Source: Anderseniella sp. Alg231-50
GTDB taxonomy: Bacteria; Pseudomonadota; Alphaproteobacteria; Rhizobiales; Aestuariivirgaceae
Direction of reading: 5' to 3'
Assembly: GCF_900149695.1 (NCBI RefSeq)
Contig: NZ_LT703004.1
Coordinates: 1-64,000 of the forward strand
DNA length: 64,000 bases
In this document: piece by piece, positions 42,077 to 63,942 of the stretch
How the letters are laid out: each line of letters starts with the position of its first letter
How positions within the stretch are numbered: the first letter of the stretch is position 1
Translations under genes and position numbers: made by a program
The notes under the pieces: generated by a model
Database searches by the model: none
Told to the model about the DNA's origin: nothing
Seen by the model: only the letters and a program-made list of their open reading frames with translations

Positions 42077-42093
42077 ATCACCTTGCTAAGGCA

Positions 42094-42131: not shown

Positions 42132-42230
42132 GCCTGTAAAGAAAAAAACATTCCTGTGAGTTGAAACTGTTTCTCGTTGGTGATAGCGTTTTTTCACTGA
42201 CTAGAACCATCAAATTGGACACGACAAGAA

Positions 42231-43127: not shown

Positions 43128-43130
43128 GCC

Positions 43131-43814: not shown

Positions 43815-43823
43815 GGGGCGATA

Positions 43824-45173
43824 ATGAACAAGATGACCAAGAATGTATCCGGCATTCCACGCACGGTACCGCAGAAACCCGCGACATTCACCGATCCGGT
43901 CAATGCTGAAATCCGCCGCGCCGCGGCAACCGGCATTTATGACATTCGCGGCGGCGGCGCCAAGCGCAAGGTCCCGCACTTCGACGACCTCCTTTTTCTC
44001 GGAGCTTCGATCTCGCGTTATCCGCTGGAAGGCTATCGCGAAAAGTGTGAAACCAAGGTTGTGCTGGGTACACGGTTTGCAAAAAAGCCGATCGAGCTGG
44101 ACATTCCGATCACCATTGCCGGGATGAGTTTCGGTTCATTGTCAGGACCGGCCAAGGAAGCCCTGGGGCGCGGCGCAAGTGCCGCCGGGACCTCGACGAC
44201 CACCGGAGACGGTGGCATGACGGAAGAAGAACGCGGCCATTCGGACAAGCTGGTCTATCAGTATCTGCCGTCACGCTACGGCATGAACCCGGATGATCTC
44301 AGGCGCTGTGATGCCATTGAGGTTGTGGTTGGCCAGGGCGCAAAGCCCGGCGGCGGTGGCATGTTGCTGGGCCAGAAGATTTCCGACCGGGTTGCTGAAA
44401 TGCGCAACCTGCCCAAGGGCATTGACCAGCGTTCCGCCTGCCGCCACCCTGACTGGACCGGCCCTGACGACCTGGAAATCAAGATCCTGGAACTGCGCGA
44501 AATCACCAACTGGGAAAAGCCGATCTACATCAAGGTCGGCGGCGCGCGGCCCTATTTCGACACCACGCTGGCGGTCAAGGCCGGGGCCGACGTTGTCGTG
44601 CTGGACGGCATGCAGGGAGGCACGGCGGCGACACAGGATGTGTTCATTGAACATGTCGGCCAGCCGACACTCGCCTGTATTCGCCCGGCGGTTCAGGCCC
44701 TGCAAGACCTCGGCATGCATCGCGAAGTACAACTGGTGGTATCCGGCGGCATTCGCACCGGAGCCGACGTTGCGAAAGCCCTCGCGCTGGGCGCTGATGC
44801 CGTGTCCATCGGAACGGCGGCCCTGATTGCGCTGGGTGACAATGATCCACGCTGGGAAGCTGAATACAACGAACTGGGCACGACCGCGGGTGCTTATGAC
44901 GACTGGCACGAAGGCCAGGATCCGGCCGGCATCACCACGCAGGATGCCGACCTGATGGCCCGGTTCGATCCGATTGCCGGCGGGCGCCGGCTGTCCAACT
45001 ACCTCAAGGTCATGACGCTTGAAGCTCAAACCATTGCCCGCGCGTGCGGCAAGAACCACGTCCATAACCTGGAACCGGAAGACCTGTGCGCCTTGACCGT
45101 GGAGGCATCGGCGATGTCGGGTGTACCGCTTGCCGGCACAAGCTGGGTTCCCGGACGCGACGGGAGCTACTAA
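43824..45173 (+). CDS. mgsC: N-methylglutamate synthase-like subunit C, FMN domain lacking Fe-S cysteines
   Basis: The 449-residue FMN-binding glutamate-synthase domain has AGMSFGSLSGPAKEALGRGA, GGIRTGADVAKALALGADAV and the C-terminal MTLEAQTIARACGK. It joins an amine to 2-oxoglutarate in the N-methylglutamate or glutamate synthase reaction. The segment that carries the three 3Fe-4S cysteines in its paralogue (CYHCHTGRCPVG) reads YDDWHEGQDPAG here, so the iron-sulfur cluster should be absent. ATG 43824 has AAGGGG upstream. Confidence 0.85.
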   Translation: MNKMTKNVSGIPRTVPQKPATFTDPVNAEIRRAAATGIYDIRGGGAKRKVPHFDDLLFLGASISRYPLEGYREKCETKVVLGTRFAKKPIELDIPITIAGMSFGSLSGPAKEALGRGASAAGTSTTTGDGGMTEEERGHSDKLVYQYLPSRYGMNPDDLRRCDAIEVVVGQGAKPGGGGMLLGQKISDRVAEMRNLPKGIDQRSACRHPDWTGPDDLEIKILELREITNWEKPIYIKVGGARPYFDTTLAVKAGADVVVLDGMQGGTAATQDVFIEHVGQPTLACIRPAVQALQDLGMHREVQLVVSGGIRTGADVAKALALGADAVSIGTAALIALGDNDPRWEAEYNELGTTAGAYDDWHEGQDPAGITTQDADLMARFDPIAGGRRLSNYLKVMTLEAQTIARACGKNHVHNLEPEDLCALTVEASAMSGVPLAGTSWVPGRDGSY

Positions 45174-45220
45174 AAACAAACCGACAACAACCACAGAGAA
45201 TTCTGGGAGGAAACAAATCC

Positions 45221-46528
45221 ATGGCAACCGATCTGGCCCAATTCGCCAAGGAAAATGGCGTCAAATATTTCATGATCTCATTCACCGACCTGTTCGGCGG
45301 GCAACGCGCCAAGCTGGTTCCGGCGCAGGCCATTGCCGACATGCAGAAGGAAGGCGCCGGGTTTGCCGGGTTTGCCACCTGGCTCGACATGACCCCGGCC
45401 TACCCGGACATGCTGGCGGTACCTGATCCTGCATCAGTCATTCAGTTGCCGTGGAAAAAGGATGTCGCCTGGGTGGCCGGCAACTGCGTCATGGAGGACC
45501 AGTTCGTTGCACAGGCACCGCGCAATGTACTGAACCGGCTGATCGCGGAAGCGGCCGACGAAGGCATGCGGGTGAAGACCGGCATCGAGGCTGAGTTTTT
45601 CCTGCTGACGCCGGACGGGTCACAAATCTCCGATGAATACGATACCGCCGAAAAGCCGTGTTATGACCAGCAGGCGGTAATGCGGCGGTATGATGTTATC
45701 GCCGAAATCTGCGATTACATGCTGGAACTGGGCTGGGGTCCCTACCAGAATGACCATGAAGACGCCAACGGACAGTTCGAGATGAACTGGGAGTTTGACG
45801 ACACTCTGAACACTGCCGACAAGCACTCGTTCTTCAAGTTCATGACCAAGTCAGTTGCGGAAAAACACGGACTGCGCGCCACCTTCATGCCAAAACCGGT
45901 TGAAGGCCTGACCGGAAATGGTTGCCATGCGCACATCTCCGTCTGGGACAAGGCCGGCAAGGTCAACGTCTTCGCAGATGACGACATGGAACTCGGCCTG
46001 TCGGCAAAGGGCCGGAACTTCCTCGGCGGCATCATGAAACATGCATCCGCCCTGGCCGCGATCACCAATCCGACGGTGAATTCCTACAAGCGCATCAACG
46101 CACCGCGTACCACGTCAGGCGCGACCTGGGCGCCAAACACGGTGACCTGGACCGGCAACAACCGCACCCACATGGTTCGCGTACCGGGCCCGGGACGTTT
46201 CGAACTCCGGCTGGCAGACGGCGCGACCAATCCGTATCTGCTGCAGGCGGTCATCATTGCAGCCGGTCTCGACGGTATCCGCACCCAGGCTGATCCCGGC
46301 AAACGCCACGACATCGACATGTATGCCGAAGGCTACAAGGTGAAGGGTGCGCCGAAGCTGCCGCTCAACATGCTCGATGCCCTGCGCGCGTTCGACAAGG
46401 ACAAGGGCCTCAAAACCGCCCTTGGTGATGAATTTTCCGCGGCCTACCTGAAAATGAAGCATCAGGAGTGGCATGCATTCACGTCGCACTTCTCGCAATG
46501 GGAGAAGGACAACACGCTGGATATCTAG
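45221..46528 (+). CDS. gmaS: Gamma-glutamylmethylamide synthetase-like glutamine synthetase
   Basis: The 435-residue GS-fold enzyme has the ATP and metal motifs of the type III / GlnT group (KTGIEAEFFLL, NGCHAHISVWD, NSYKRINAP). GMAS joins methylamine to glutamate using ATP, and the product feeds N-methylglutamate synthase, whose three subunits are encoded just upstream. The size matches GMAS. ATG 45221 sits behind GGGAGG; the longer frame to 45086 overlaps mgsC. A plain glutamine synthetase is possible, but the gene context favours GMAS. Confidence 0.82.
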   Translation: MATDLAQFAKENGVKYFMISFTDLFGGQRAKLVPAQAIADMQKEGAGFAGFATWLDMTPAYPDMLAVPDPASVIQLPWKKDVAWVAGNCVMEDQFVAQAPRNVLNRLIAEAADEGMRVKTGIEAEFFLLTPDGSQISDEYDTAEKPCYDQQAVMRRYDVIAEICDYMLELGWGPYQNDHEDANGQFEMNWEFDDTLNTADKHSFFKFMTKSVAEKHGLRATFMPKPVEGLTGNGCHAHISVWDKAGKVNVFADDDMELGLSAKGRNFLGGIMKHASALAAITNPTVNSYKRINAPRTTSGATWAPNTVTWTGNNRTHMVRVPGPGRFELRLADGATNPYLLQAVIIAAGLDGIRTQADPGKRHDIDMYAEGYKVKGAPKLPLNMLDALRAFDKDKGLKTALGDEFSAAYLKMKHQEWHAFTSHFSQWEKDNTLDI

Positions 46529-46632: not shown

Positions 46633-47235
46633 TTGCAAAACCTTGTTCAATGGAGTCCCGGTGTGCTTCCCGAAGACCTGCGCAATCATTTTCTGACCTG
46701 GCAATGCCGCATCAGGCAAATCGCCATGCGCGAGCAGGAAGGCCGCCCCGGCCAGGGCATGCGGCCACGGGTTCTTGATGCCAATGGGGAACAGCTATCA
46801 GCGGGCATTATTGTTCTGCTGGTACGCGAGGATTCATTTGAAAGCACCGAATTCCTGAAATTCCAGGTGCAGAAGTACAATGACCCGCAGGACGTGTACA
46901 AAAAGGCGCTGATCTTCCTGCAATCCACCCATTATCATCGCGCCGCAGAATTTTCAGATGAAATGACGGGGCTGTTCAGCAAGGGTTCGGAGCTTGTCCA
47001 GCGCATGATGAGCGGTGGAAATGTCACCCTGGAGTTCGCTCAGTTTTCGCAAACCTACCAGGTTCCCTGCAACACCCGATTGCTGCCCCCCGAAGAAGCG
47101 GCTTACGAGGCAACGCTGTGGCATAACCGGGTGTTCAATCCGAATATCGGCTCAGATATCGAGATTGTCGGTTTCCAACCCGACTGGGATGCAGCAGCCG
47201 GATTGATGGATGGCTCTGCGAAAGCAGCAAGCTAA
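46633..47235 (+). CDS. Unrecognised protein downstream of gmaS
   Basis: An ORF of 200 residues starts at TTG 46633, but the ribosome site is weak and GTG 46661 is an alternative start. The protein looks soluble, with no signal peptide or membrane segment. It has an N-terminal WQCRIRQIAMREQEGRP region and a central part rich in helices (FLQSTHYHRAAEFSDEMTGL). I do not recognise the family. It lies between gmaS and a DAO flavoprotein on the same strand, so a role in the same amine pathway is plausible. Confidence 0.65.
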   Translation: MQNLVQWSPGVLPEDLRNHFLTWQCRIRQIAMREQEGRPGQGMRPRVLDANGEQLSAGIIVLLVREDSFESTEFLKFQVQKYNDPQDVYKKALIFLQSTHYHRAAEFSDEMTGLFSKGSELVQRMMSGGNVTLEFAQFSQTYQVPCNTRLLPPEEAAYEATLWHNRVFNPNIGSDIEIVGFQPDWDAAAGLMDGSAKAAS

Positions 47236-49724: not shown

Positions 49725-50615
49725 GTGGATAGTCAGCCAGCCAGCGTCAAGTGGGGGATCAACAATGATTACGCCGCCCTGCATGATGTCCTGTTGGGCA
49801 AGCCGGAGTTTTTCAGATGGGTCGACGCCGGTCCCTTGATCGGGCGTACGATCGCCAATGCCCACAAGACCGGCGTGAAGTTTGATCTTCAACTGGCGAT
49901 GGCACAGCACGCGGAGATGGTCCGGATTTACGAGGATGCCGGCATCAACTGTCATTTCCTGGAAGCCGATGAAGCTCTTCATCGAAACTTTTTTGCCAGG
50001 GACAGCTCAGCGATGACCCCGTGGGGGGCGCTGGTCTGCCACATGCAGCTCAAATGCCGGCGCGCGGATTATGTAAGCGTGATCAAGTTCTATCAGGCGC
50101 ATGACATTCCGATCTGGCAGTTTGCCACGGCAGGTCATTTCGAGGGCGGCGACTTCGTCATTCTGGAACCAGGCAAGGTTCTGATTGGATATTGCGGGGA
50201 ACGGTCTGAAAAAGAAGGCTCGGAACAGGTCGCGGAGTTTGTACGAAAGGAAGGCTGGGAAGCGGTAACGGCGCCGATCAGCCGCGAGTTTGTGCATATG
50301 GACGGGCTTGTGGTGCCGCTGGCTGAAAAACTGCTGGTGGCGTGCGTCGATGCTCTCGAACCGTGGGTTGTCCGCCAATTGCGGGACTGGGGTTTTGATT
50401 TCGTTGAAGTATCGTACAGGGAAGCAAAGAATCTTGGAGTTAACCTGGTGGCGCTGGGCAACGACAAGGTGCTTTCGATGAAAGGGGCTGACGAACTGAA
50501 TCAGAAAATGCGGGCACTGGGGTTTGAAGTGCATGAGCCGGACATGTCGATGTTTACACTCGGCGGCGGCGGCGTGCATTGCCTGGCGCAAGCCCTGTGC
50601 CGCGAAAACGTATAG
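49725..50615 (+). CDS. Amidinotransferase-superfamily hydrolase (DDAH / arginine-deiminase-like)
   Basis: The 296-residue pentein-fold enzyme has FARDSSAMTP, GHFEGGDFVIL, the histidine motif EFVHMDGLVV and the nucleophilic cysteine in GGGGVHCLAQ near the C-terminus. Relatives hydrolyse guanidino groups: arginine deiminase gives citrulline and ammonia, and dimethylarginine dimethylaminohydrolase gives citrulline and a methylamine. The start is GTG 49725 with GAGG 9 nt upstream. Its neighbours are a quaternary-amine importer and a ureohydrolase, so an imported guanidino compound is the likely substrate. Confidence 0.83.
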   Translation: MDSQPASVKWGINNDYAALHDVLLGKPEFFRWVDAGPLIGRTIANAHKTGVKFDLQLAMAQHAEMVRIYEDAGINCHFLEADEALHRNFFARDSSAMTPWGALVCHMQLKCRRADYVSVIKFYQAHDIPIWQFATAGHFEGGDFVILEPGKVLIGYCGERSEKEGSEQVAEFVRKEGWEAVTAPISREFVHMDGLVVPLAEKLLVACVDALEPWVVRQLRDWGFDFVEVSYREAKNLGVNLVALGNDKVLSMKGADELNQKMRALGFEVHEPDMSMFTLGGGGVHCLAQALCRENV

Positions 50616-50779
50616 GCATTGAATTGCCAGACCTGGTTTCCCGTGATTTTCGGACCAGTAAGATGAAACCCGAGGACTACGGAAAAACGCCTAACTCTTG
50701 CAAACGAGTCGAAAACGTAGAACAACATTAGAGGTAGGTTTATCTTGAGGGAAATGAGTTGAGTAAGGAGGAAATATCT

Positions 50780-51736
50780 ATGAAATTTAAAAAATCAGCC
50801 ACTGGCGCGGCTCTCGCAATGGTAATGGGGTTCGCCCCTGCCGCGCAGGCCGCCGACGTGGTGATCGGTGTTCCGAACTGGCCTTCAGTGCGTGTCACTG
50901 CACATGTCCTGAAAGTTGTCATGGAAGACAATCTGGGTGTTGAGGTGGAACTTCAAAACGGTACCAATCCGGTTGTATTTGAAGCCATGGATTCAGGTGC
51001 CATGCATGTTCATCCTGAGGTCTGGCTGCCAAACCAGGCAAACCTGGAAGCGAAATACGTAACGGACAAGGGTACCGTTCGCCAGAATTCAAACGGAGTT
51101 GACGGCGACCAGGCCATGTGCGTGACAAAGTCCACCGCAGAACGCACCGGGATCAAGGATCTTTCAGAGCTTTCAAATCCCGACATGGCAAAGAACTTCG
51201 ACTCTGACGGTGACGGCAAGGGTGAGATCTGGATCGGTGCTGCCGGCTGGGCGTCAACCAATGTCGAAAAAATCCGCGCCAAATCCTACGGTTATGCAGA
51301 AACCATGCAGCTTAAGGAAATGGACGAAACCCTGGCATTGGCCGAGGTCGACAATGCGGTAGCGCAGAAAAAGAACATCGCATTTTTCTGCTACACACCG
51401 CACCATATGTTTGCCCTGCATGAACTGGTCATCCTCAAGGAGCCAGCCTATGACAAGGCAAAGTGGGTCGTGAAGCAGCCTACCGATGATCCGCAGTGGC
51501 TGGAAAACTCTTCAGCGCCTGTAGCCTGGAATACGGCGAAGCTGAAAATCCACTATGCAACCAGCCTGGAAGGCAGCAACCCTGCCGTCGCCAAGCTGCT
51601 TTCACAGGTCAACCTGAACACGGAGATCGTGTCCAAAATGACCTTTGCGCTTGTGGTTGAGAAGCAGGATCCAGCCGAATTTGCCAAGAAATGGGTGGCC
51701 GACAATGGCGACCTGGTAGACAGCTGGCTGAAATAG
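50780..51736 (+). CDS. ProX-type substrate-binding protein of the guanidino locus
   Basis: The 318-residue protein starts at ATG 50780 behind TAAGGAGG and has a Sec signal peptide ending AAQAA. It has the OpuAC fold (VVIGVPNWPSVRVTAHVLKV) with aromatic residues such as Trp in EVWLP and AAGWAS that may form a cation cage. It is related to, but clearly distinct from, the binding protein at 26168. Its ligand is unknown; the genes around it point to a guanidino or betaine-like molecule. Confidence 0.9.
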   Translation: MKFKKSATGAALAMVMGFAPAAQAADVVIGVPNWPSVRVTAHVLKVVMEDNLGVEVELQNGTNPVVFEAMDSGAMHVHPEVWLPNQANLEAKYVTDKGTVRQNSNGVDGDQAMCVTKSTAERTGIKDLSELSNPDMAKNFDSDGDGKGEIWIGAAGWASTNVEKIRAKSYGYAETMQLKEMDETLALAEVDNAVAQKKNIAFFCYTPHHMFALHELVILKEPAYDKAKWVVKQPTDDPQWLENSSAPVAWNTAKLKIHYATSLEGSNPAVAKLLSQVNLNTEIVSKMTFALVVEKQDPAEFAKKWVADNGDLVDSWLK

Positions 51737-51756
51737 TCAAAACACAATGAAAAGAT

Positions 51757-51790
51757 CCGCGCGGAGAGTGCATATGCACTTTCCGCGCGG
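51757..51790 (+). other. Long hairpin after the binding-protein gene
   Basis: Arms CCGCGCGGAGAGTGCAT (51757-51773) and ATGCACTTTCCGCGCGG (51774-51790) form a 17-bp stem with one G-T wobble and almost no loop. No T-run follows. It sits at the same place as the hairpin at 26115 in the other ABC cassette, between binding protein and ATPase genes, and probably protects the upstream message. Confidence 0.6.
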
Positions 51791-51837
51791 GCTTAGCTAT
51801 TCAATCCAATAATGTGATGCAAAGTTAGGACATTGTC

Positions 51838-52887
51838 GTGAGTGACAGCACAATCGTACTCGAGAATGTCTGGAAGATTTTCGGCGGCCGCGCCGAAGAG
51901 GCAATGCAGGCAATTGAAGACCGGGGACTTTCGAAAGCGGAGGTCCTCGCTGAGTTTGGAGCGGTGGTCGGGATTGCGGATTGCTCATTTGAAGTCAAGC
52001 GAGGCGAGATATTCTGCGTTATGGGCCTCTCGGGTTCCGGCAAATCTACCATGGTGCGCCATCTGAACCAACTTATTGCGCCCACGGCCGGCAAGATTAC
52101 GGTTCTCGGCAAGGATATGGTGCGACTGGCCGGCGAAGAACTGCGCGAGATGCGCGCAATGCACATAGGCATGGTATTTCAGCACATGGCGTTGCTTCCC
52201 CACCGAACAGTGCGGGACAATGTCGCATTTCCCCTTCAGGTACGAGGCGAACCAAAATCCAAGAGATGGGCCACGTCGCAACAGTGTCTGAACATGGTCA
52301 ATCTCGATGGGTACGAAGACCGTTTCCCGCGCGAGCTTTCCGGCGGCATGCAGCAGCGGGTGGGATTGGCAAGGGCCCTCGCCTCGGATCCGGAAGTCCT
52401 TCTGATGGACGAACCGTTCTCGGCCCTGGACCCCCTGATCCGGCGACAGTTGCAGGATCAGTTCATGGGGCTTTCCGCCGAGCTGCAAAAGACCACGGTT
52501 TTCATAACCCATGACCTGGATGAAGCGATACGAATAGGTGATCGCATCGCGATCATGAAGGACGGACGGATTGTCCAGATCGGGACGCCTGAGGACATCG
52601 TAACCAAGCCGGCCGACGACTACGTAAAGGATTTCGTGGAAGGTATTTCAAAACTCAAACTGGTGTTTGCCCATTCCATCATGGAGAAATTGTCTGATCA
52701 CAAGCCAGTCAAAGGCGAAGACCTGTCCAAGAGCCCCCGCGCCCATCATGGCACCAATCTCGATGAACTAATCGACATTGCGACAACATCTGACAATCCA
52801 ATTGTCATTCAGGATGATGATGGAAAAGACGTCGGGGTCATATCAAAGACGACGTTGCTTAAAGGGATTCAGGGAGGCAAGGGATGA
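51838..52887 (+). CDS. ProV-type ATPase of the second quaternary-amine ABC importer
   Basis: The 349-residue ATPase has Walker A GLSGSGKST, signature ELSGGMQQRVGLARAL, Walker B LLMDEPFSALD and FITHDLDEA. An N-terminal insertion (RAEEAMQAIEDRGLSKAEVL) precedes the core, as in ProV/OpuAA. The C-terminal part is a short CBS-like region. The start is GTG 51838. It overlaps the permease gene by 4 nt (ATGA). Confidence 0.93.
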   Translation: MSDSTIVLENVWKIFGGRAEEAMQAIEDRGLSKAEVLAEFGAVVGIADCSFEVKRGEIFCVMGLSGSGKSTMVRHLNQLIAPTAGKITVLGKDMVRLAGEELREMRAMHIGMVFQHMALLPHRTVRDNVAFPLQVRGEPKSKRWATSQQCLNMVNLDGYEDRFPRELSGGMQQRVGLARALASDPEVLLMDEPFSALDPLIRRQLQDQFMGLSAELQKTTVFITHDLDEAIRIGDRIAIMKDGRIVQIGTPEDIVTKPADDYVKDFVEGISKLKLVFAHSIMEKLSDHKPVKGEDLSKSPRAHHGTNLDELIDIATTSDNPIVIQDDDGKDVGVISKTTLLKGIQGGKG

Positions 52888-54455
52888 CCGATACTGGTCT
52901 TGAGCGGGGAGCCAGCACTCTTGATGCCTCCATTGGTGAATTCACCAAGGAAAACGAGCAATATTACACGGCTGAATTTGAAAAAATTCAGGGGACCACA
53001 GGTTTCCCCTGGTCCTGGAACACCATGGCTGCCGTGTTCGGACCGCTATGGGGCGCGTTGCGAGGTGCCTGGGGATTTTTCTGGACTTTCCTGGTACTGG
53101 AACTGTTCGTGCTGGTTCAGCTCGGGCGCGGCCTGTGGGGTGAATTGGGCGCAGATCAGCTGGCTCGCTATGATCGGCTTGTTGCAAACATTGCCAAGCG
53201 TGAGCAGCAGGCGGCAGAAGCGCTGGCGGCAGGTGATGCTGCAGATTCCGAAGCGAAACTGAAGATCGCCAGCAATCTGAAAAAAGTAGCGGAAACCGCA
53301 AAGGAGCAGGCAGCGGAAGCGGCTACCGAAGGCACAACGATTTTGCTGACCGGGTTGGTGTTGCTGGTTCTCGTGAAATTGCTGGAAGGTTTTTACGCCA
53401 ATATTGCCTATGAGAAACAATATCTCAGATGGCGCGCATCCCCCGGAGTCCAAGCCGGCACCAGCAGAGCGAGTGTGGCATTCGGTGCTGTGTTGATGAT
53501 TGCCATCTGGCCACTGACACTGTTCCGGTTTACGGTCGCTGATCCCGATGCAAAACTGAGCGCAATGACCAACGGTTTCCTTGGGGGCAGCATTCCGATC
53601 ACCGATTTTCCGGTCAAAAAGGAATATTTTGGCGCACTCGCCAAACTGGGAGATGCCGGATTCGACTGGTTGGCCAACAATTTCGGCGATGTGTTTGACG
53701 GAATCACCGCTGGCATCAAGGCCGTGCTCGACGGACTGGAAATCATTCTCATACAAACGCCGTGGCCGGTTGTGATGGTGGTGATCACCGTCATGGCCTT
53801 CCGGCTTGCAGGCATTCGGGTGGCCATTTTCACTGCCGCTTCGCTGTTGTACCTGGCATTCATGGGATTGTGGGAAATCTCAATGATTACCGTTGCACTG
53901 ATCGGTGCCGGTGCGTTCCTGTGCGTGCTGTTTGGAATCCCGCTCGGCATATGGTTCGGCAAATCCAAACGCGCCTATACGTTTGCAGAACCTGTTCTTG
54001 ATTTCATGCAGACCATGCCAGCCTTCGTGTACCTGATTCCCATCATTGCCTTCTTCGGCACCGGCAAACCGCCAGGCGTGCTGGCAACCATCATCTTCGC
54101 AATGCCTCCGGTCATCCGGCTGACGGCGCTGGGTATGCGCGGCGTGCCTGAAGCCACGAAAGAGGCCGCAGTGGCGTTCGGCTGTTCAAAATGGCAATTG
54201 CTGCGAAACGTGGAAATACCACTTGCCATGCCCTCCATCATGACCGGCATCAACCAGACGATATTGATGTCACTCTCAATGGTGGTGATTGCATCGCTGA
54301 TTGGTGCGGAAGGTCTTGGCGCGCTTATCCTTGAGGCGCTGCAGTACGCGGCCAAGGGACAAGGGCTCCTGGGAGGATTGGCAATTCTGTTCTGCGCGAT
54401 GGTTATCGACCGGATCGCCCAGGGCATGTACAGGCGAAGTGCCGGCAAGGCCTGA
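52884..54455 (+). CDS. ProW-type permease fused to an N-terminal DUF2628-like membrane domain
   Basis: The 523-residue protein has an ordinary permease domain at about residues 300-520 (MQTMPAFVYLIPIIAFFG, TKEAAVAFGCSKWQLLRNVE). The first 200 residues are unusual: FPWSWNTMAAVFGPLWGALR and GFYANIAYEKQYLRWR resemble the DUF2628 membrane domain, split by a helical, alanine- and glutamate-rich stretch (residues about 95-150). It pairs with the ATPase by a 4-nt overlap. The extra domain is not present in the permease at 23002. Confidence 0.85.
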   Translation: MTDTGLERGASTLDASIGEFTKENEQYYTAEFEKIQGTTGFPWSWNTMAAVFGPLWGALRGAWGFFWTFLVLELFVLVQLGRGLWGELGADQLARYDRLVANIAKREQQAAEALAAGDAADSEAKLKIASNLKKVAETAKEQAAEAATEGTTILLTGLVLLVLVKLLEGFYANIAYEKQYLRWRASPGVQAGTSRASVAFGAVLMIAIWPLTLFRFTVADPDAKLSAMTNGFLGGSIPITDFPVKKEYFGALAKLGDAGFDWLANNFGDVFDGITAGIKAVLDGLEIILIQTPWPVVMVVITVMAFRLAGIRVAIFTAASLLYLAFMGLWEISMITVALIGAGAFLCVLFGIPLGIWFGKSKRAYTFAEPVLDFMQTMPAFVYLIPIIAFFGTGKPPGVLATIIFAMPPVIRLTALGMRGVPEATKEAAVAFGCSKWQLLRNVEIPLAMPSIMTGINQTILMSLSMVVIASLIGAEGLGALILEALQYAAKGQGLLGGLAILFCAMVIDRIAQGMYRRSAGKA

Positions 54456-54483
54456 GACCTGAAATGCCTGCTTCCATTATTGC

Positions 54484-54510
54484 TGCTCGCGGCGAACTTC
54501 GTCGCGAGCA
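54484..54510 (+). other. Hairpin between permease and ureohydrolase genes
   Basis: Arms TGCTCGCG (54484-54491) and CGCGAGCA (54503-54510) enclose an 11-nt loop that can pair further. No T-run follows. It may tune expression between the transport and catabolic genes. Confidence 0.4.
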
Positions 54511-54534
54511 TCACGCCTTCGCAGGGAACGTTCA

Positions 54535-55518
54535 ATGACCCGAGACCATGACGCATCGATGATGGAAAACCTCTATTGGTGGGGCATTCCGACCCTGTTC
54601 AGGTGTGAACAAGGCCGACCGGGTGACGCGGATATCGCGTTGGTGGGCGTTCCGCATTCTGCCGGCAACGGCACAACGGAAAGAGACCAGCATCTCGGTC
54701 CGCGTTCGGTGCGCAATGTTTCCGCGGTCCAGCGCAGGGTTCACTCTGAATTCCGGATTGACCCGTGGAGGAGTGCCAGGATAAAGGACGTCGGCGATGT
54801 CCCGTTTCCGCGCGCCAATGACAATGAGGACTGCGTTGAACGCATCACCGAGTTTTACCAGGAGGTAGACGAGGCCGGAGCAAGGCCTGTCTCGATTGGC
54901 GGCGATCATTCGATTACCGGCGGTATCGTGGAGGCGCTTGGCAAGGGTAAACTTGCCGGGGGTGAGCCGGTCTGTTTTCTCCACCTGGACGCCCACACGG
55001 ACGTGTTTACAAAAGTGGATCACTTCCTGGGCGCAAAAAAATCGGCCGCTCACTGGGGCGCATTCCTGGCTGACGGGGGATACGTTTCGCCGGAAAATTC
55101 GATGCAGATCGGCCTCCGCGGCCACCCTCGCACCCTTGACTGGCTGGAGCCTTCCTACGAGTACGGATACAATGTGGTCACCATGGCGGAGTACCGCTCT
55201 CGTGGTGCTGAAGATGTGCTGTCGCAGATAAAGCAGACGCTTGCAGGCAGACCTGTGTACATCACCTTCGATCTTGATTGCCTTGACGTGACGGTTGCAC
55301 CGGGGGTTTCAAACCTGGAACCGGGCGAAGGCGGGTTCAGCATAGACGAAGCTGTCAGCCTGGTGCGGTCGGTTCGCGGCATGAATATCGTTGGCGGGGA
55401 TGTCGTTTGCCTGATGCCGACCAAGGATCACCCCAACAACATCACCTCACTGGTCGCGGGATCTATCATGTTTGAAATGATCTCGATGATTTCGGAGAAT
55501 GTCGCGAACAAGCAATGA
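54535..55518 (+). CDS. Agmatinase-family ureohydrolase
   Basis: The 327-residue manganese enzyme shows the full ureohydrolase metal set: SIGGDHSITGG near residue 125, LHLDAHTDVF near 150 and FDLDCLDVTVAPGV near 250. Relatives cut a guanidino group into urea and an amine (agmatine, guanidinobutyrate, guanidinopropionate, guanidine). The start at ATG 54535 lies 79 nt after the permease. With the pentein hydrolase at 49725 it makes two different guanidine-cleaving enzymes in one locus. Substrate unknown. Confidence 0.87.
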   Translation: MTRDHDASMMENLYWWGIPTLFRCEQGRPGDADIALVGVPHSAGNGTTERDQHLGPRSVRNVSAVQRRVHSEFRIDPWRSARIKDVGDVPFPRANDNEDCVERITEFYQEVDEAGARPVSIGGDHSITGGIVEALGKGKLAGGEPVCFLHLDAHTDVFTKVDHFLGAKKSAAHWGAFLADGGYVSPENSMQIGLRGHPRTLDWLEPSYEYGYNVVTMAEYRSRGAEDVLSQIKQTLAGRPVYITFDLDCLDVTVAPGVSNLEPGEGGFSIDEAVSLVRSVRGMNIVGGDVVCLMPTKDHPNNITSLVAGSIMFEMISMISENVANKQ

Positions 55519-56808: not shown

Positions 56809-57219
56809 CTAGAACTTTCGATAAGCCTTGTTCAGAACCACCATTGGATGATCCGGCGACATCTGGAACTTGATCAGAAGTTCGCGGGCGATCATGTCAC
56901 GATCCTGCTGGTTGTCCGGCAGATCATAGCTGTCGGGGATCGCCACCCAGCCATTGATATTGCGGTCGAACACGGCGGGTTTGCCGTCGTCATAGCCCAT
57001 GTGAACATCTTCCAGCCAGTTGAGGTCTTCCCAACCCATGAACTCGATGTAGCCTTTGAGAAAATCGGTAATGCGATCGTAGTCGGGCAGCAGGTTCACA
57101 TCATAGCGATAGCCGATGTGTTGCCCGATGACCTGTTCGCGTTCGGAGTCAATGCCACCACCCTTGAGGAAGTGATCGACATCTCCGATCTCGGCGCCTT
57201 TATAGCCAGTTCCAGCCAT
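56809..57219 (-). CDS. Unrecognised 136-aa protein of the second GS operon
   Basis: The 136-residue acidic soluble protein follows the FMN synthase gene by 14 nt, so it is part of the operon. Visible features are YRYDVNLLPDYDRITDFLKG, GWEDLNWLEDVHMGYDDGKP and SPDHPMVVLNKAYRKF at the C-terminus. There is no signal peptide, membrane segment or cysteine motif. I do not recognise the family. Its conserved-looking aromatic and acidic composition and its position suggest a subunit or assembly factor of the GS/glutamate-synthase-like enzymes. ATG 57219 has GGAGAC upstream. Confidence 0.75.
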   Translation of the reverse strand: MAGTGYKGAEIGDVDHFLKGGGIDSEREQVIGQHIGYRYDVNLLPDYDRITDFLKGYIEFMGWEDLNWLEDVHMGYDDGKPAVFDRNINGWVAIPDSYDLPDNQQDRDMIARELLIKFQMSPDHPMVVLNKAYRKF

Positions 57220-57233: not shown

Positions 57234-58607
57234 CTAAATGTGGTGATAGTCGTCTACGCCGACCGTGAAGTCGGTACCGGCAAGCGGCACCTGGGCGATT
57301 GCCGACGCTTCCATGGTCAGGGCAGCCAGGTCTTCCGGCTCCAGACTGTGGATATTGGTCTTGCCGCAGGCACGAGCCATCATCTGGGCTTCCATGGTCA
57401 GCGTATGCAGGAAGTTGTAGACGCGTTCTGCTGCCTCATCCGGATCGAGGCGCTTGCGCAACGCCGGGTCCTGTGTCGCCACGCCGACCGGGCAGCGCCC
57501 TGTGTGACAGTGATAGCACTCGCCTGCTTCCACACCCATCTCCGACGGATAATCGGCTTCCTCGATGTCCTTGTTGCAGTTCAGGGCCATCATGGCGGAA
57601 TGGCCGATTGCGATGGCATCGGCTCCCAGGGCCAGTGCCTTGGCAACGTCGCCGCCGTTTCGGATACCGCCGGCATAAACCAGCGTTATCTCGCCACGCT
57701 TGCCGATGTCGTCAATGGCACGCCGGGCCTGGCGGATGGCCGCCATGCCGGGCACCCCGGTTTCCTCGGTGGCCAGATGCGGACCGGCGCCGGTGCCGCC
57801 TTCCATGCCGTCGATATAGATCGAGTCCGGATCACACTTTGCCGCCATGCGTACGTCATCGTAGACACGTGCCGCGCCAAGCTTGAGCTGGATCGGAATC
57901 TGCCAGTCGGTCGCTTCGCGAATTTCCTGGATCTTCAGTGCCAGATCGTCCGGTCCGAGCCAGTCCGGGTGCCGGGCCGGTGAACGCTGGTCGATACCGG
58001 CAGGAAGCGAGCGCATTTCTGCGACCTGATCGGTTACCTTCTGACCCATCAGGTGCCCGCCAAGACCGACCTTACAACCCTGCCCGATGAAAAATTCGCA
58101 ACCGTCAGCCAGTTGCAGATGGTGCGGGTTGAAGCCATAGCGCGACTGGATGCACTGGTAGAACCACTTTGACGAATACCGCCGCTCATCCGGGATCATG
58201 CCGCCCTCGCCCGAACACGTAGCGGTGCCGGCCATGGTAGCGCCACGCGCCAAGGCAGTCTTGGCCTCGAATGACAATGCACCGAAGCTCATGCCGGTAA
58301 TGTAGATCGGAATATCGAGTTCAATCGGACGCTTGGCGCGCGGACCGATAATGGTCTTGGTCAGGCATTTTTCACGATAGCCTTCGATCACGAAACGGGT
58401 CAGCGTGCCCGGAAGAAATGTCAGATCATCCCAGTGCGGGATTTTCTTGAACAGCGAGAACCCGCGCATACGGTAGCGGCCAAGTTCCGATTTGATGTGA
58501 ATGTCGTTCACCACCTCCGGCGGGAACACAAATGAATTGCCGAGCTTGTATTTCTTCTCGACCTGCAACTTGGAATGGCCAGTGTCTTTTTTGGTCTTGC
58601 CAGTCAT
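57234..58607 (-). CDS. FMN and 3Fe-4S glutamate-synthase-like subunit (second cluster)
   Basis: The 457-residue FMN domain protein has TGMSFGALSFEAKTALARGA, DGMEGGTGAGPHL and GGIRNGGDVAKALALGAD. It keeps the three cysteines of a 3Fe-4S site in ECYHCHTGRCPVGVATQD, unlike its paralogue at 43824. It should pass electrons and ammonia (or an amine) to 2-oxoglutarate. The GXGXG and amidotransferase subunits are encoded just upstream. GlxD is an alternative name. Confidence 0.88.
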   Translation of the reverse strand: MTGKTKKDTGHSKLQVEKKYKLGNSFVFPPEVVNDIHIKSELGRYRMRGFSLFKKIPHWDDLTFLPGTLTRFVIEGYREKCLTKTIIGPRAKRPIELDIPIYITGMSFGALSFEAKTALARGATMAGTATCSGEGGMIPDERRYSSKWFYQCIQSRYGFNPHHLQLADGCEFFIGQGCKVGLGGHLMGQKVTDQVAEMRSLPAGIDQRSPARHPDWLGPDDLALKIQEIREATDWQIPIQLKLGAARVYDDVRMAAKCDPDSIYIDGMEGGTGAGPHLATEETGVPGMAAIRQARRAIDDIGKRGEITLVYAGGIRNGGDVAKALALGADAIAIGHSAMMALNCNKDIEEADYPSEMGVEAGECYHCHTGRCPVGVATQDPALRKRLDPDEAAERVYNFLHTLTMEAQMMARACGKTNIHSLEPEDLAALTMEASAIAQVPLAGTDFTVGVDDYHHI

Positions 58608-58650: not shown

Positions 58651-59499
58651 CTAGAGGACCAGTTTTTTCTCCGACGGTTCGAGGTTGTCGTAGCTCCACA
58701 GCTGCTTGCCGGCGACGATCTTGGTGAAATGATCTACGCCCTTTTCCGGCATCATTTCGTATTGCGTCAGCTTGCGGGTCAGCCATGCCTTGTCCAGATC
58801 GGTCAGTTCGGCAGGAACGGCATCCACACCGAGATCCTGGATTTCGCCACCGATAAAGATGGTGCCGTCATACATGCTGTCACCGAGGTTCTTGCCGGCA
58901 TTGCCGCACACGACCATGCGGCCGCGCTGCATCATGAAGCCGGAAAACGCGCCGGTGTCGCCACCGACCAGGATGGTGCCGCCCTTCTGGTCGATGCCCG
59001 TTCTGGATCCGACCGAGCCCTTGCACACAAGGTCGCCGCCGCGAATGGCGGCGCCGAAAGTCGAGCCGGCGTTCTTTTCAACAACGCAGACACCGGCCAT
59101 CATGTTTTCGGCAAAAGACCAGCCAACACGCCCGGAAATCCGTACCATCGGGCCATCGAGCAGGCCGCAGCCGAAGTAGCCCAAAGATCCGTTCACGATG
59201 AAATTCATCCGGTGCAGAATGCCGACAATGATCGAATGCTTGGCGCCGGGGTTTTCCAGCACGATGGTACCGTGGCCGGATTTAATGAGATCCCGGATCT
59301 CATTATTGATCTCGGTCGCTTCCTTGTCCTGGCAATCAACCGACCCGCGCTTGTTGAAGTCCACGTCCGGGGCAAATGCATAGGCATAGCCGCCTTCGTT
59401 CTCCAGCGAGAACATGGTCTTGATGTCACGTCCCTTGAGCGGCTCCGTATGGAGGCCCATCTCTTCGCCGGCGTGGCCGGAAGTGTCTAAGCCTGCCAT
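58651..59499 (-). CDS. GXGXG subunit of the second glutamate-synthase-like enzyme
   Basis: The 282-residue beta-helix protein has glycine-repeat segments (GRVGWSFAENMMAGVCVVEK and GDTGAFSGFMMQRGRMVVCG). It carries about 55 more residues than the paralogue at 43131, including an N-terminal HTEPLKGRDIKTMFSLENEG region. It overlaps the amidotransferase gene by 13 nt, so the two are coupled. Confidence 0.85.
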   Translation of the reverse strand: MAGLDTSGHAGEEMGLHTEPLKGRDIKTMFSLENEGGYAYAFAPDVDFNKRGSVDCQDKEATEINNEIRDLIKSGHGTIVLENPGAKHSIIVGILHRMNFIVNGSLGYFGCGLLDGPMVRISGRVGWSFAENMMAGVCVVEKNAGSTFGAAIRGGDLVCKGSVGSRTGIDQKGGTILVGGDTGAFSGFMMQRGRMVVCGNAGKNLGDSMYDGTIFIGGEIQDLGVDAVPAELTDLDKAWLTRKLTQYEMMPEKGVDHFTKIVAGKQLWSYDNLEPSEKKLVL

Positions 59500-60422
59500 A
59501 CTCTTACCTCCTCGTCGTAAGGGTCCCAGGTATCTATTTCATGGGGAACGATTGCCCGGATCGCGACTTCTTCAGAGGCCAGGGCAACCATGTCATCTGT
59601 TTCGTACAGAACCATCGGTTTGGCCGCCATGGAATCCTTGGCCATGCCAAGCTGATCCTTGGTGGTCACCAGATAGGTGAATACGCCGTCGATCTCTTCA
59701 ATGGATTTCTTCAACGTCTCTTCCAGCGTCATGCCCTTTTCCAGGCTGGTGGCCACGTAAACCGCCAGCAACTCGGAATCGCAATTGGACACGAAACGCT
59801 GTCCTTCACGCTCCAACTGCCGACGCATCAGCCAGTAGTTGGTGATCTGGCCGTTATGCACCACGGCGATATCGCTGTATGGGTAGGCCCAGTACGGGTG
59901 GGCAGAACGGATATCGACATCCGACTCTGTCGCCATGCGGGTATGTCCGATGCCGTGGGTCCCGGTGAAATCGCCCAGCCCGTAAGCGCTGGACACCACA
60001 CCGGCATCACCCAGGTCCTTGATCAGTTCCAGAGCCGATCCGATCGACAAGATTTCCGCACCTTCGATGTCCTCGATATGATCGGACAGCAGTTTCATGT
60101 CGCCGTCATATTGAATTTCATATCGAAACGCGTACTCGGTGGCTTCATCCAGTTCCTTGACCTTGACCCCAAGCGTTTTCAGGGTTTCGTCAACGGCATC
60201 CTTGCGGCGCTTGATTTCCTCGTGAATCTTGAGCGCGCCATGCAGGTCTTCCTGCTCGGCAACCTTGAAGCGCAAGACAAAGGTGTTTTCTTCAGGTTCG
60301 CCGTAAATCGCAAACCCGGTTGAATCCGGCCCCCGGTGTTTCAGGGCCTGCAGCATGCTGGTCATTTCCTGACCGACATTGCTGGAGCCCTTCCGGTGTA
60401 TCAGCCCTGCAATTCCGCACAT
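59487..60422 (-). CDS. Class II glutamine amidotransferase subunit (second cluster)
   Basis: The 311-residue Ntn-hydrolase starts MCGIAGLIHRKG if ATG 60422 is used; this start exposes the catalytic cysteine and matches the paralogue at 42231, so it is preferred over upstream ATG 60428 and 60452. Motifs are KHRGPDSTGF, GHTRMATES, VVHNGQITNYW and NCDSELLAV. It supplies ammonia or handles a gamma-glutamyl amide for the FMN subunit. Confidence 0.84.
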   Translation of the reverse strand: MCGIAGLIHRKGSSNVGQEMTSMLQALKHRGPDSTGFAIYGEPEENTFVLRFKVAEQEDLHGALKIHEEIKRRKDAVDETLKTLGVKVKELDEATEYAFRYEIQYDGDMKLLSDHIEDIEGAEILSIGSALELIKDLGDAGVVSSAYGLGDFTGTHGIGHTRMATESDVDIRSAHPYWAYPYSDIAVVHNGQITNYWLMRRQLEREGQRFVSNCDSELLAVYVATSLEKGMTLEETLKKSIEEIDGVFTYLVTTKDQLGMAKDSMAAKPMVLYETDDMVALASEEVAIRAIVPHEIDTWDPYDEEVRVWQA

Positions 60423-60498: not shown

Positions 60499-61977
60499 TT
60501 ACGGCAGGCATTCCATGTAGGTGTCTTTGTCCCAATCGGTGACGGAAGACATGAAGCGTCCCCATTCATCCGATTTGTACTCGTGGTAGAGCCGGTACAT
60601 TTCGCCGGGCAGGCCACGCTGCACGACTTCGTCAGCCTCGAGCGCCTCAAGCGCTTCACCAAGCGACATCGGAAGCTTCTTCACATCCTTGCCGGCCTTG
60701 ATGGCATCATAGATGTTTCTTTCTTCCGGCTCACCGGGGTCGAGCTTGTTGACGATACCGTCATCGGCAGCCGCCAGAATGCAGGCACCCATGAGGTAAG
60801 GGTTCACCATGGAGTCCACCGAACGGTATTCAAACCGGCCCGGTGCCGACACGCGCAAGCCCGTGGTGCGGTTCTGGAAACCCCAGTCCGCAAACACCGG
60901 CGCCCAGAAACCGGTATCCCACAAGCGGCGATACGAATTCACGGTCGACGATCCGATTGCTGTCAATGCCCGCAGGTGATGCACAATGCCGCCGATGGCC
61001 TCCAGGCCGGCTTTCTGCGGCATCTGGGGATCGTCGCCATCCGGCATGAAGGTGTTGTCTCCACCTTTCACGTACATGTAGTTGTCTTTCATGCCCGGCA
61101 GTGCTTTCGGGTCATTGCCGGTGCGGCAGAACTCGTCCTCGCCGCCATGCCACAGCGACATGTTGTGGTGACAACCCGAAGCCGAAACGCCTTCAAACGG
61201 CTTGGTCATGAAGCAGGCGAAGATGCCGAACTCGCGGGCGACCTGGGCGCAGATCTGGCGGTAAGTCGTCAACCGGTCGGCATTGCGCAACACGTCGTCG
61301 TACATCCAGTTGAGTTCCAGCTGGCCCGGTGCGTCCTCGTGATCGCCCTGGATCATGTCGAGGCCCATCGCGCGGGAGTATTCCATCACTTTCATGTAGA
61401 CGGGGCGCAGGCTCTCGAACTGGTCGATGTGATAACAGTAAGGCTTGGAGTATCCGTGCTCCGGCTTACCGTCCTCATTGAACTTGAGCCACATCATTTC
61501 CGGCTCGGTGCCGACACGCAGGCTGAGGCCGTTGTGCTTCTTCTTGAAGTCGTCGTGCAGGCGGCGCAGGTTGCCGCGGCAGTCGGCGGTCAGGTACCCG
61601 CCTGGATCTTCCTTCTCCTCGCGGTTGCGGAACAGTGTGCAATAGAAGCGCCCGATGCGCTTGTCCCAGGGCAGCTGCATGAAGGTTTCAGGCTCAGGAA
61701 TGCCGACAAGCTCTGCTGCTTCCGGGCCGTAACCGAGATACTCGCCGGCCCGGTTGGTGAACAGGTTCATGGTTGCGCCGTAAACGAGCTGAAAGCCTTT
61801 CTTGGCGACTGCTTCCCAGTGATCGGCAGGAATACCCTTACCCATTATTTTGCCGGTGACCGACACGAACTGGAGATAGAGATACTCAATCCCCAGCTCA
61901 TCGATCATTTTCCGGACTTCCTTGACCTTTTCGGCCCTGCCCGGCGCATCAACAAAATTCTCAATATCCATTGCCAT
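60499..61977 (-). CDS. Glutamine-synthetase-family ligase of the second cluster (GlnT/GMAS-like)
   Basis: The 492-residue GS-fold enzyme has LRVGTEPEMMWLKF, SGCHHNMSLWHGG and NSYRRLWDTGF motifs of the type III group, and is about 57 residues longer than the enzyme at 45221. The family joins ammonia or a primary amine to glutamate. It leads the operon GS, amidotransferase, GXGXG, FMN subunit and the 136-aa unknown. ATG 61977 and 61971 are both possible. An array of ACCAAT repeats lies 25-62 nt upstream. Confidence 0.87.
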   Translation of the reverse strand: MAMDIENFVDAPGRAEKVKEVRKMIDELGIEYLYLQFVSVTGKIMGKGIPADHWEAVAKKGFQLVYGATMNLFTNRAGEYLGYGPEAAELVGIPEPETFMQLPWDKRIGRFYCTLFRNREEKEDPGGYLTADCRGNLRRLHDDFKKKHNGLSLRVGTEPEMMWLKFNEDGKPEHGYSKPYCYHIDQFESLRPVYMKVMEYSRAMGLDMIQGDHEDAPGQLELNWMYDDVLRNADRLTTYRQICAQVAREFGIFACFMTKPFEGVSASGCHHNMSLWHGGEDEFCRTGNDPKALPGMKDNYMYVKGGDNTFMPDGDDPQMPQKAGLEAIGGIVHHLRALTAIGSSTVNSYRRLWDTGFWAPVFADWGFQNRTTGLRVSAPGRFEYRSVDSMVNPYLMGACILAAADDGIVNKLDPGEPEERNIYDAIKAGKDVKKLPMSLGEALEALEADEVVQRGLPGEMYRLYHEYKSDEWGRFMSSVTDWDKDTYMECLP

Positions 61978-62001: not shown

Positions 62002-62039
62002 ACCAAATTGACCAATACCATACCAATGCTATACCAATT
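62002..62039. promoter_or_regulatory. Direct-repeat operator array upstream of the second GS operon
   Basis: ACCAA occurs at 62002, 62011, 62022 and 62033; the last three are spaced by exactly 11 nt, one helical turn. The 18-bp ACCAATGCTATACCAATT at 62022-62039 recurs with one mismatch upstream of the amidase gene at 63925. The adjacent FadR-type regulator is the obvious candidate to bind it. Confidence 0.65.
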
Positions 62040-62124
62040 TTGACAACCTACAAAATGAACCCAAGCGTCTTTTCGCACAAAATTCCTCATCCGGAGCAGT
62101 CCTGACTTATCCAATCATGGAGTG

Positions 62125-62151
62125 AGAACAGTTGCCAAAGTTGCCTGTTCT
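62125..62151. promoter_or_regulatory. Inverted repeat in the GS-regulator interval
   Basis: AGAACAG (62125-62131) and CTGTTCT (62145-62151) are perfect 7-bp complements around a 13-nt spacer that itself contains a GTTGCC direct repeat. The centre-to-centre spacing is two helical turns. It may serve autoregulation or another regulator. Confidence 0.35.
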
Positions 62152-62308
62152 GTGTGTACTCTATTGAGGTAACTTGACGAACCGCGATCGGAAATCGATT
62201 CAAAAATGGGCGGCAACAAGCTGATATAAATGGTAATTTATCAACTCTGCTCCTATATAAGTCATTACAGGAGCGCCTGCTCGAGGGTATGATTGCAAGG
62301 CAAAGGGA

Positions 62309-63010
62309 ATGATTTCGATTGAACACAAGAGCGCCCGAGGAGCCCGGTCCATAACATCCGAGCTCCGCAAGGCCATCGAAACAGGCAGGTATCACGACGG
62401 GGACCAATTGCCTCCGGAGCGGGACCTTTCCGAGACCTATGCAGCTTCCCGCAATACAATCAGGAAAGCGCTGGACAACCTTGAAGAGGACGGCCTGGTG
62501 GTCCGGAAAGTCGGCAGCGGCACCTTTGTCAACTATGCCGGCCCGGCAGACCTTGAGACCGAAAACGTCGTCGAACAGATCAGCCCGCTGCAGCTGATCG
62601 ATGCGCGTATCGGGTTCGAACGGCAGATGACCCGGCTGGCAGTGGTGCACGCGACCGGGCGGGATATCGAGAAAATGCAGGCCCTGCTGACCCAGCTCGA
62701 GGCTTCCGAGCAGGACCGCAACACCTTTACAAAGCTGGATTCAGAGTTCCACCATCAGCTGGCCAAGGCATCCGGCAATCCGTTAATTGTAAAATTATAT
62801 CATCAAATCAATGAAGTACGCACGCATTCTCAGTGGAGAAAAGCGCGTGAACTGGTTCTCAGCCCCGAGAAAATCCGCCAGTACAACAAATTCCACAGGG
62901 GCATACTGGACGCACTGATAAACCGTGACACCAAGTCGGCCATCGATGCGTTGAATGCCCACATGGAGCTGGCCCACCTTGATCTTGTCGGCACAACCTC
63001 CGACGACTGA
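62309..63010 (+). CDS. GntR-family FadR-type regulator
   Basis: The 233-residue protein has an N-terminal winged helix (LPPERDLSETYAASRNTIRK, DGLVVRKVGSGTFV) and a C-terminal FCD ligand domain (DSEFHHQLAKASGNPLIVKL). It starts at ATG 62309 with AAGG upstream. Divergent from the GS operon and convergent with the amidase gene, it is well placed to control both through the shared ACCAAT elements. Confidence 0.9.
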   Translation: MISIEHKSARGARSITSELRKAIETGRYHDGDQLPPERDLSETYAASRNTIRKALDNLEEDGLVVRKVGSGTFVNYAGPADLETENVVEQISPLQLIDARIGFERQMTRLAVVHATGRDIEKMQALLTQLEASEQDRNTFTKLDSEFHHQLAKASGNPLIVKLYHQINEVRTHSQWRKARELVLSPEKIRQYNKFHRGILDALINRDTKSAIDALNAHMELAHLDLVGTTSDD

Positions 63011-63033
63011 TCAGCCCCCGCGCCACCCGGCAC

Positions 63034-63897
63034 TCACCCGGAGCCGGCAAGCTTCGGTTTTTGCCCCTGCCCCCCGGTGCTCATGTGAATTGGCCGGTCG
63101 TGCTGAAGTGCGGGAATCCTGGCTCTCGCGGCTGCGACCCTGGACATATCCAGATCAGCCACAATGTATCCCTCACCATCGCCGGCATCGGCCAAAACCT
63201 CACCCCACGGGTCAATGATCAGAGAATGCCCGTAGCACTCGCCGCCACCGGATATTTTGCCGTATTGGCAGGGAGCTATTACATAGCACCCGGTCTCAAT
63301 GGCCCTGGCACGCTGCAATACGTGCCAATGAGCCTGCCCTGTAACCTTGGTGAATGCGGCCGGAGATGCCAGCACCCCGGCGCCCTGCTTGGCGAGTTGC
63401 CGGTACAGTGCGGCGAACCGCAGGTCATAGCAGATCGACAGTCCCAGGGTTGCCCAGGGCGTGTCGGCCACGACGGCCTGGTCGCCCGGCGATATGGTCG
63501 CTGACTCACGATATGACCCACCGTCGAGATCCACGTCGAACATGTGGATCTTGTCATAGCGCGCTACCGTCTCGCCTTCGGCATTGATCAGGTACGAGCG
63601 GTTGGATATGCGTCCGTCATTGTTCTGCACGCCAATTGACCCGAGCAGGAACCAGACCCCGAGCCTGCAGGCCGCTTCGGCAAACGCCGGCAGCACCGGA
63701 TGCTCTGCTTCCGGGTACGCACCGGGAAGAAACAGACCGTCCCTGGTTTCCAGACCGGAAAAGTACTCCGGCGTTGCAATCAACTGAGCGCCGTCTGCGG
63801 CGGCCTCACCGGCCAATCGCAGGCTTGTCTCTATATTGTGCAGAACATCCGGTGTGGCGCAGTTCTGCAGGCAGGCCACCGAAAATTTGTCGGACAT
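63034..63897 (-). CDS. Nitrilase-superfamily amidase
   Basis: The 287-residue enzyme has the Glu-Lys-Cys set: Glu44 (TPEYFSG), Lys116 (YDKIHMFDV) and Cys156 (SICYDLRF). The sequence around them places it in the Nit / omega-amidase branch, which hydrolyses omega-amides such as 2-oxoglutaramate or deaminated glutathione. It converges on the FadR-type gene with a 23-nt gap. It shares an operator-like 18-mer with the second GS operon, so its substrate may be an amide made or handled there. Confidence 0.87.
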   Translation of the reverse strand: MSDKFSVACLQNCATPDVLHNIETSLRLAGEAAADGAQLIATPEYFSGLETRDGLFLPGAYPEAEHPVLPAFAEAACRLGVWFLLGSIGVQNNDGRISNRSYLINAEGETVARYDKIHMFDVDLDGGSYRESATISPGDQAVVADTPWATLGLSICYDLRFAALYRQLAKQGAGVLASPAAFTKVTGQAHWHVLQRARAIETGCYVIAPCQYGKISGGGECYGHSLIIDPWGEVLADAGDGEGYIVADLDMSRVAAARARIPALQHDRPIHMSTGGQGQKPKLAGSG

Positions 63898-63924
63898 CGC
63901 TTAATCCCATCGTGCTTGATGACA

Positions 63925-63942
63925 ACCAATTCTATACCAATT
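63925..63942. promoter_or_regulatory. Shared operator element upstream of the amidase gene
   Basis: ACCAATTCTATACCAATT differs at one base from the element at 62022-62039 and keeps the 11-nt spacing of the two ACCAAT units. It lies 28-45 nt upstream of the amidase start codon, a similar position to the copy before the GS gene. Confidence 0.65.

Follow-up and report, generated by a model that had tools for sequence, protein, structure and literature searches.

Trimethylamine and TMAO belong to the major methylated amines in the sea, and the published control of their breakdown concerns one Roseobacter, without an operator sequence. In Ruegeria pomeroyi, the GntR repressor TmoR (SPO1553) represses tmm and is relieved by dimethylamine and weakly by TMAO; tmm is its only reported target, and no operator motif is stated (PMC13390433). 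The mode of DNA binding closest to what is described below is that of NanR, three dimers of which line up side by side and cooperatively on (GGTATA)3, each with one domain on the consensus, and which represses its targets (PMC8012715). Here, we report a candidate operator and a candidate regulator for the trimethylamine/TMAO pathway in Hyphomicrobiales and other alphaproteobacteria. The regulator would be a second natural GntR/FCD protein with direct repeats as its probable target, a property for which NanR has been described as unique, and a co-regulated module of a glutamine synthetase (GS), MgsABC and an amidase is marked out. With a probability of roughly 80%, we consider the GntR/FCD protein to repress methylated-amine catabolism in the manner of NanR, by acting on helically phased direct ACCAAT repeats. 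Nearly all support for this model is of the linkage and conservation kind.

The DNA that was analysed, called the window throughout, is a stretch of 64,000 nucleotides from Anderseniella sp. Alg231-50. Its relevant features, and those past its end, are collected in Table 1.

Table 1. Coordinates of features in the window and, with the prefix C2, beyond its end.
Feature	Position	Strand	Basis
amt-mgsABC-GS1 cluster	40490-46528		mgsABC and GS1 at 42231-46528
p136, small conserved protein ending the GS2 operon	56809-57219	-	75-97% identity in relatives
MgsC/GlxD-like FMN glutamate-synthase domain, second copy	57234-58607	-	domain make-up
MgsB/GlxC-like GXGXG protein, second copy	58651-59499	-	domain make-up
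MgsA/GlxB-like class II amidotransferase, second copy	59487-60422	-	domain make-up
GS2, glutamine-synthetase-like ligase diverged from GmaS	60499-61977	-	orthologue with regulator in 24 genomes
Predicted GS2 operator, ACCAAT units 62011-62016, 62022-62027, 62033-62038	62011-62038	+	11-bp steps; 35.7 bits; kept in related loci
Predicted GS2 sigma-70 promoter	62017-62046	-	TTGTCA (62046-62041), 18-nt spacer, TATGGT (62022-62017)
GntR-family regulator with FCD effector domain, 233 aa, probable array reader	62309-63010	+	domain models; NanR top structural neighbour
Nitrilase-superfamily amidase, Nit1/Nit2 branch	63034-63897	-	CN_hydrolase; mouse Nit2
Predicted nitrilase operator, ACCAAT units 63925-63930, 63936-63941	63925-63941	+	11 bp apart; 24.8 bits
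Tmm	C2:68573-69913		NF058570, 838 of 675 bits (curated cut-off passed)
Tdm (TMAO demethylase)	C2:70724-73093		NF053776, 1237 of 1100 bits (curated cut-off passed)

The preliminary description of this DNA had pointed to an 18-mer shared by the upstream regions of a second GS operon and a nitrilase-type amidase gene, with a FadR-type gene in between. Both copies are exactly where they had been placed, ACCAATGCTATACCAATT at 62022-62039 and ACCAATTCTATACCAATT at 63925-63942, 45 bp before the start of GS2 and 28 bp before that of the nitrilase, each on the strand opposite to the gene it precedes, and the gene between them does belong to the GntR family. The GS2 array was also correctly read as three ACCAAT units at 11-nt phasing; an additional ACCAAA at 62002, 9 nt from the next unit, is out of phase. 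In the genome scan (4.61 Mb in 8 contigs, 99.4% complete) the 18-mer had only these two copies with up to two mismatches, rather than many unrelated ones, and about 0.0003 exact copies are expected by chance from the base count. The looser two-unit pattern (ACCAAW/ACCAAT, 10 or 11 bp apart) gave three overlapping matches, which are these two arrays, and a single other match on another contig within unrelated genes. This scarcity of the 18-mer and of the looser pattern rules out chance recurrence.

The nitrilase operator lies in the intergenic region between the nitrilase gene and tmoX, and both of its units are retained in five related loci (L040, L042, L043, L045 and L079). A position weight model of the array, trained on GS2 and oxidoreductase promoters only, identified a degenerate four-unit array in the tmoX promoter as well (C2:64115-64158, 24.2 bits), which is retained in three congeners; it detected none in the tdm promoter of this genome. 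Read along the direction of GS2 transcription the GS2 units are ATTGGT, and they overlie the spacer and the -10 element of the sole promoter-like match there, a match to consensus of which chance gives about an equal number in the region.

Orthologues of the regulator were drawn from the family, the order and a named genome collection (L040-L079; alphaproteobacteria including Anderseniella, Aestuariivirga, Taklimakanibacter, Pelagibius and Methyloligella). In about 40 GntR/FCD-bearing alphaproteobacterial loci, arrays of 2-5 ACCAAT units in steps of 10 or 11 bp were found upstream of the same genes. An array score of at least 4 was reached upstream of GS2 in 75% (n = 40 loci), of the FAD oxidoreductase gene in 94% (n = 16), of the GntR gene in 62% (n = 42) and of the nitrilase gene in 44% (n = 18), against 3.2% of random windows of the same loci (n = 2520); these fractions are descriptive, as the loci are related, some genomes are in both collections, some MAGs are incomplete, the background windows were partly drawn from loci whose promoters were scored, and counts from neighbouring loci are not independent events. 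The periodicity emerged without any prior assumption on spacing. In 43 non-redundant regions upstream of GS2, the exact ACCAAT pairs were separated by 11 bp in 36 instances, by 22 bp in 10, and by 21 and 41 bp in one each; none was found at 5-10 or 12-20 bp, nor at any other distance up to 45 bp, and shuffling gave an expectation of less than one pair per distance. With one mismatch allowed, the FAD oxidoreductase promoters had peaks at 10/11, 20/21, 31/32 and 41/42 bp. The ACCAAT array is thus predicted to be a helically phased direct-repeat operator.

The arrays follow the regulator gene. Three-unit arrays were present in 8 of 28 regulator-bearing genomes and in 6 of 369 others (P = 5e-7). 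Three of those six have the array beside an APC permease gene (L161, L162 and L163); they are from another family than the source genome and are without the window's regulator, and L161 and L163 have another, distant FCD-GntR (31-33% identical) within the fetched 3 kb. An APC permease 65% identical to the array-linked one of L161 is encoded downstream of tdm in L252, where it too has a phased array. GS2 orthologues unlinked from the regulator (L187-L189, L195 and L196) have no array, and in these genomes a diverged regulator (about 40-44% identity) sits beside GS1. That the arrays are a generic feature of promoters, or reflect bent DNA, is disfavoured, given the lack of arrays at these unlinked orthologues and at GS2 paralogues of 54-55% identity; moreover, the units are not A-tracts.

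The protein itself exceeds the curated cut-offs for both of its domains (GntR 72.7 bits, cut-off 27; FCD 84.5 bits, cut-off 24.3), and its C-terminus matches FCD better than FadR_C (85 vs 27.5 bits). H148, H196 and H218, presumably the conserved metal-binding histidines of FCD domains, are invariant in 14 orthologues. NanR is the top Foldseek neighbour of the structural model (pLDDT 82; E 2e-10), and the NanR family model, although the best NCBIfam subfamily, is failed by the regulator at 103 of 260 bits, which is why we regard it as NanR-like in mechanism only. Of 397 genomes of the order, 28 have a regulator orthologue, 26 a GS2 orthologue and 24 both (Fisher, P = 3e-32). In 38 of 40 loci GS2 is within 4 kb of the regulator on the opposite strand. 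In other genera a gene for an FAD oxidoreductase (DAO) is located between the two; this genome holds no match to it at E<=1e-30. This tracking of arrays with the regulator gene agrees with the earlier proposal that the FadR/GntR-type protein is the likely reader of the operator, and the protein very probably occupies runs of ACCAAT units spaced by one DNA turn. Regulators of the window's genus begin right before the wing-helix domain, and many others carry about 20-40 extra N-terminal residues. Where the extension is present the arrays have more units, less strictly spaced at 11 bp; a correlation between extension and unit number is possible, but the trend follows clades.

In the proposed mechanism, the GntR/FCD protein whose gene lies between the two 18-mers would have an operator that includes them, and half-sites of ACCAAT (ATTGGT) recurring every 10-11 bp would place all units on the same side of the helix. 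Each regulator dimer would set one wing-helix domain on one half-site, as in NanR, and adjacent dimers, packed side by side, could cooperatively cover the promoter and repress it. Binding of a methylated amine or of a product thereof by the FCD domain would release the array; candidate effectors are dimethylamine or TMAO, by analogy with what is published for TmoR, or else a glutamylated compound made from the amine. From the NanR mode, and from the position of the GS2 array over the promoter match, we infer cooperative repression that is relieved by a metabolite of the amine pathway. That the regulator instead reads the arrays as an activator, or in both ways, is unlikely. The arrays of tmoX and of the FAD oxidoreductase gene do lie farther out than those of GS2 and the nitrilase, some 60-150 bp before the start codon, but the GS2 and nitrilase arrays are only 28-66 bp from it, the GS2 array covers the promoter match, and repression is the reported mode of action of NanR and TmoR, the relatives that have been described best (PMC8012715; PMC13390433).

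The gene neighbourhood points to a wider pathway. The preliminary description predicted one regulon with a shared operator for the second GS operon and the nitrilase, and this part is borne out by the retention of the array at both promoters in relatives and by a common operon in L039. In this locus, of the same genus, an oxidoreductase gene, GS2, mgsA, mgsB, mgsC, p136, the nitrilase gene and p200aa follow each other on the same strand, p136 and the nitrilase gene being 3 bp apart, an order that independently supports the association of GS2 and nitrilase. The predicted content of the regulon, a self-contained amine-salvage cycle of GS and amidase, appears unlikely. Past the window end, a TmoXWV-like transporter operon, in which the trimethylamine monooxygenase gene tmm is included, runs divergently from the nitrilase gene, and tdm then follows, which places Tmm and Tdm 5-9 kb beyond the nitrilase and makes the regulon one of trimethylamine/TMAO/methylamine catabolism. 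The TmoX-W-V-like genes match the choline/betaine ABC family. Among relatives, the array model was positive for tmoX in 18 of 20 loci (90%; some loci are duplicates of one genome), and for tmm and tdm in 56% and 39% of upstream regions, respectively (n = 18 each). Extra arrays in regulator-bearing genomes were located beside genes for TMAO demethylase (L175, L176, L178 and L167; PDB 9q59, E 1e-154), trimethylamine monooxygenase (L177; 5ipy, E 1e-232), a DMGDH-like protein (L160) and a transporter permease. The regulon of this genome would accordingly comprise the operon of GS2, the second mgsABC and p136, the nitrilase gene and the tmoXWV-tmm operon, joined in relatives by tdm, a stand-alone tmm, a dimethylglycine-dehydrogenase-like gene or an amine permease gene. 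A conserved secreted-looking protein is encoded directly 3' of tmm (C2:69917-70705, L250), and is tmm-adjacent also in L041, L079 and L262.

It is distinctly unlikely that the GS/amidase pair makes and hydrolyses the same gamma-glutamyl amide in such a salvage cycle. GS2 and the nitrilase do share an operator, and an operon in L039, and GS2 has Trp in place of the flap glutamate in 47 of 47 sequences, like GmaS and as expected for an alkylamine ligase (PMC7948447). However, Tmm, Tdm and the TmoXWV-like transporter are in the regulon too, a cycle that forms and splits one and the same amide would burn ATP to no purpose, opening a gamma-glutamyl amide is already within the reach of the MgsA-like class II amidotransferase, and about half of the loci are without a nitrilase gene near GS2. 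The nitrilase gene is within 6 kb of GS2 in 18 of 40 loci, there always convergent behind the regulator. Its product passes CN_hydrolase (188.6 bits, cut-off 23.2) and has mouse Nit2 as its best solved relative; it reached no equivalog cut-off for omega-amidase or deaminated glutathione amidase, the best curated model, NF043013 for the latter, giving 206 of 500 bits. Judged from sequence, repair hydrolysis of a side product of the 2-oxoglutaramate type is as likely a role for it as hydrolysis of a gamma-glutamyl amide.

It is highly improbable that the arrays have a different reader, be it an AraC protein like TmaR or a paralogue resembling TmoR: R. pomeroyi does run the same pathway with the AraC-type TmaR and a second GntR, TmoR (PMC13390433), and some relatives have tmm-linked GntR paralogues (L264 and L265), but the arrays track this GntR clade and its gene position, and those of L161 and L163, with another FCD-GntR nearby, also point to GntR readers. 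The GS2-linked regulators form a clade separate from the tmm-linked GntRs (support 100/99). A class-wide search for TmoR-like proteins returned four matches, three of them of the GS2/DAO-linked kind, and the regulator is the single match in this genome at E<=1e-25, so that a TmoR-like paralogue is lacking here.

Returning to the GS2 module of the proposed NanR-like regulon, GS2 fails the cut-off of TIGR03105 (GmaS, type III glutamate-ammonia ligase) at 309 of 470 bits. GS1 is of the GmaS type (match to RhGmaS, E 2e-186), and its cluster has no array. As 24 of the 25 regulator-bearing genomes tested possess both GS1 and GS2 orthologues, GS2 is an addition, and the replacement of a missing GmaS by GS2 is ruled out. 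A search of plasmids for GS2 found only relatives of 52-53%, in unrelated clusters. A reading in which the Ser of the GS2 motif LQFVS[VI]TG takes the place of Asp50, the ammonium-binding residue of GS, was dropped, since Asp50' is in another loop (PMC7948447). The GS1 genes belong to a second methylamine cluster (39424-46528), with an XRE-cupin regulator, an ammonium transporter and mgsABC. Two small conserved proteins, p136, which matches neither a Pfam nor an NCBIfam family, and p200aa (46633-47235, plus strand), without a Pfam family match, recur across genera in amine clusters. A further group of genes in the window, at 49725-55518, codes for a dimethylargininase/arginine deiminase-like protein, a second ABC transporter of the quaternary-amine type and an agmatinase-like protein; they may form a methylarginine route by which dimethylamine or methylamine would enter the pathway.

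The product of Tdm is dimethylamine. PF11927, which we take to be the haem subunit of dimethylamine monooxygenase (haem-dependent oxidative N-demethylase alpha-like), is missing from 11 of 20 Tdm-bearing genomes tested. The genome under study (G000) has a lone PF11927 gene (C1:1896781-1897602, L269), with no Tmm, Tdm, Tmo or GS neighbour and no visible dimethylamine monooxygenase operon. GS2, the second MgsABC and the nitrilase might then constitute a glutamate-mediated dimethylamine route in bacteria without dimethylamine monooxygenase, with dimethylamine as the GS2 substrate, although we consider this very unlikely. For GmaS, the Km for dimethylamine is as high as 16 mM (PMC7948447), and a dedicated ligase would therefore be needed. 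If dimethylamine were indeed the substrate of the module, a recognised gap in the pathway would be filled.

Compared with the described systems, the GS2 operon resembles GmaS-MgsABC (gamma-glutamylmethylamide synthetase and N-methylglutamate synthase) in the order GS-A-B-C, in its domains and in the flap Trp, but differs in that the window already contains another operon of the GmaS type, with mgsABC genes of its own. The regulator has the wing-helix fold of E. coli FadR and belongs to the same GntR family; FadR, however, reads a palindrome (PMC8012715), and FCD, not FadR_C, fits the regulator better. With TmoR it has in common the GntR family, the methylated-amine pathway and the proposed repressor function, whereas the tmm-linked L264 and L265, presumed relatives of TmoR (the R. 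pomeroyi sequence being outside the tree), form a separate clade. NanR, the E. coli sialic-acid repressor, serves another pathway and has a long N-terminal extension for cooperativity, which the window's protein is without, most relatives having extra residues. It is alike in being the best NCBIfam subfamily and the top Foldseek match. Its operator consists of direct repeats rather than a palindrome, and the predicted operator here is comparable in part: the array units are direct repeats of ATTGGTAT or ATTGGT with a period of 10-11 bp and contain GGTAT, whereas the GGTATA repeats of NanR are closely packed.
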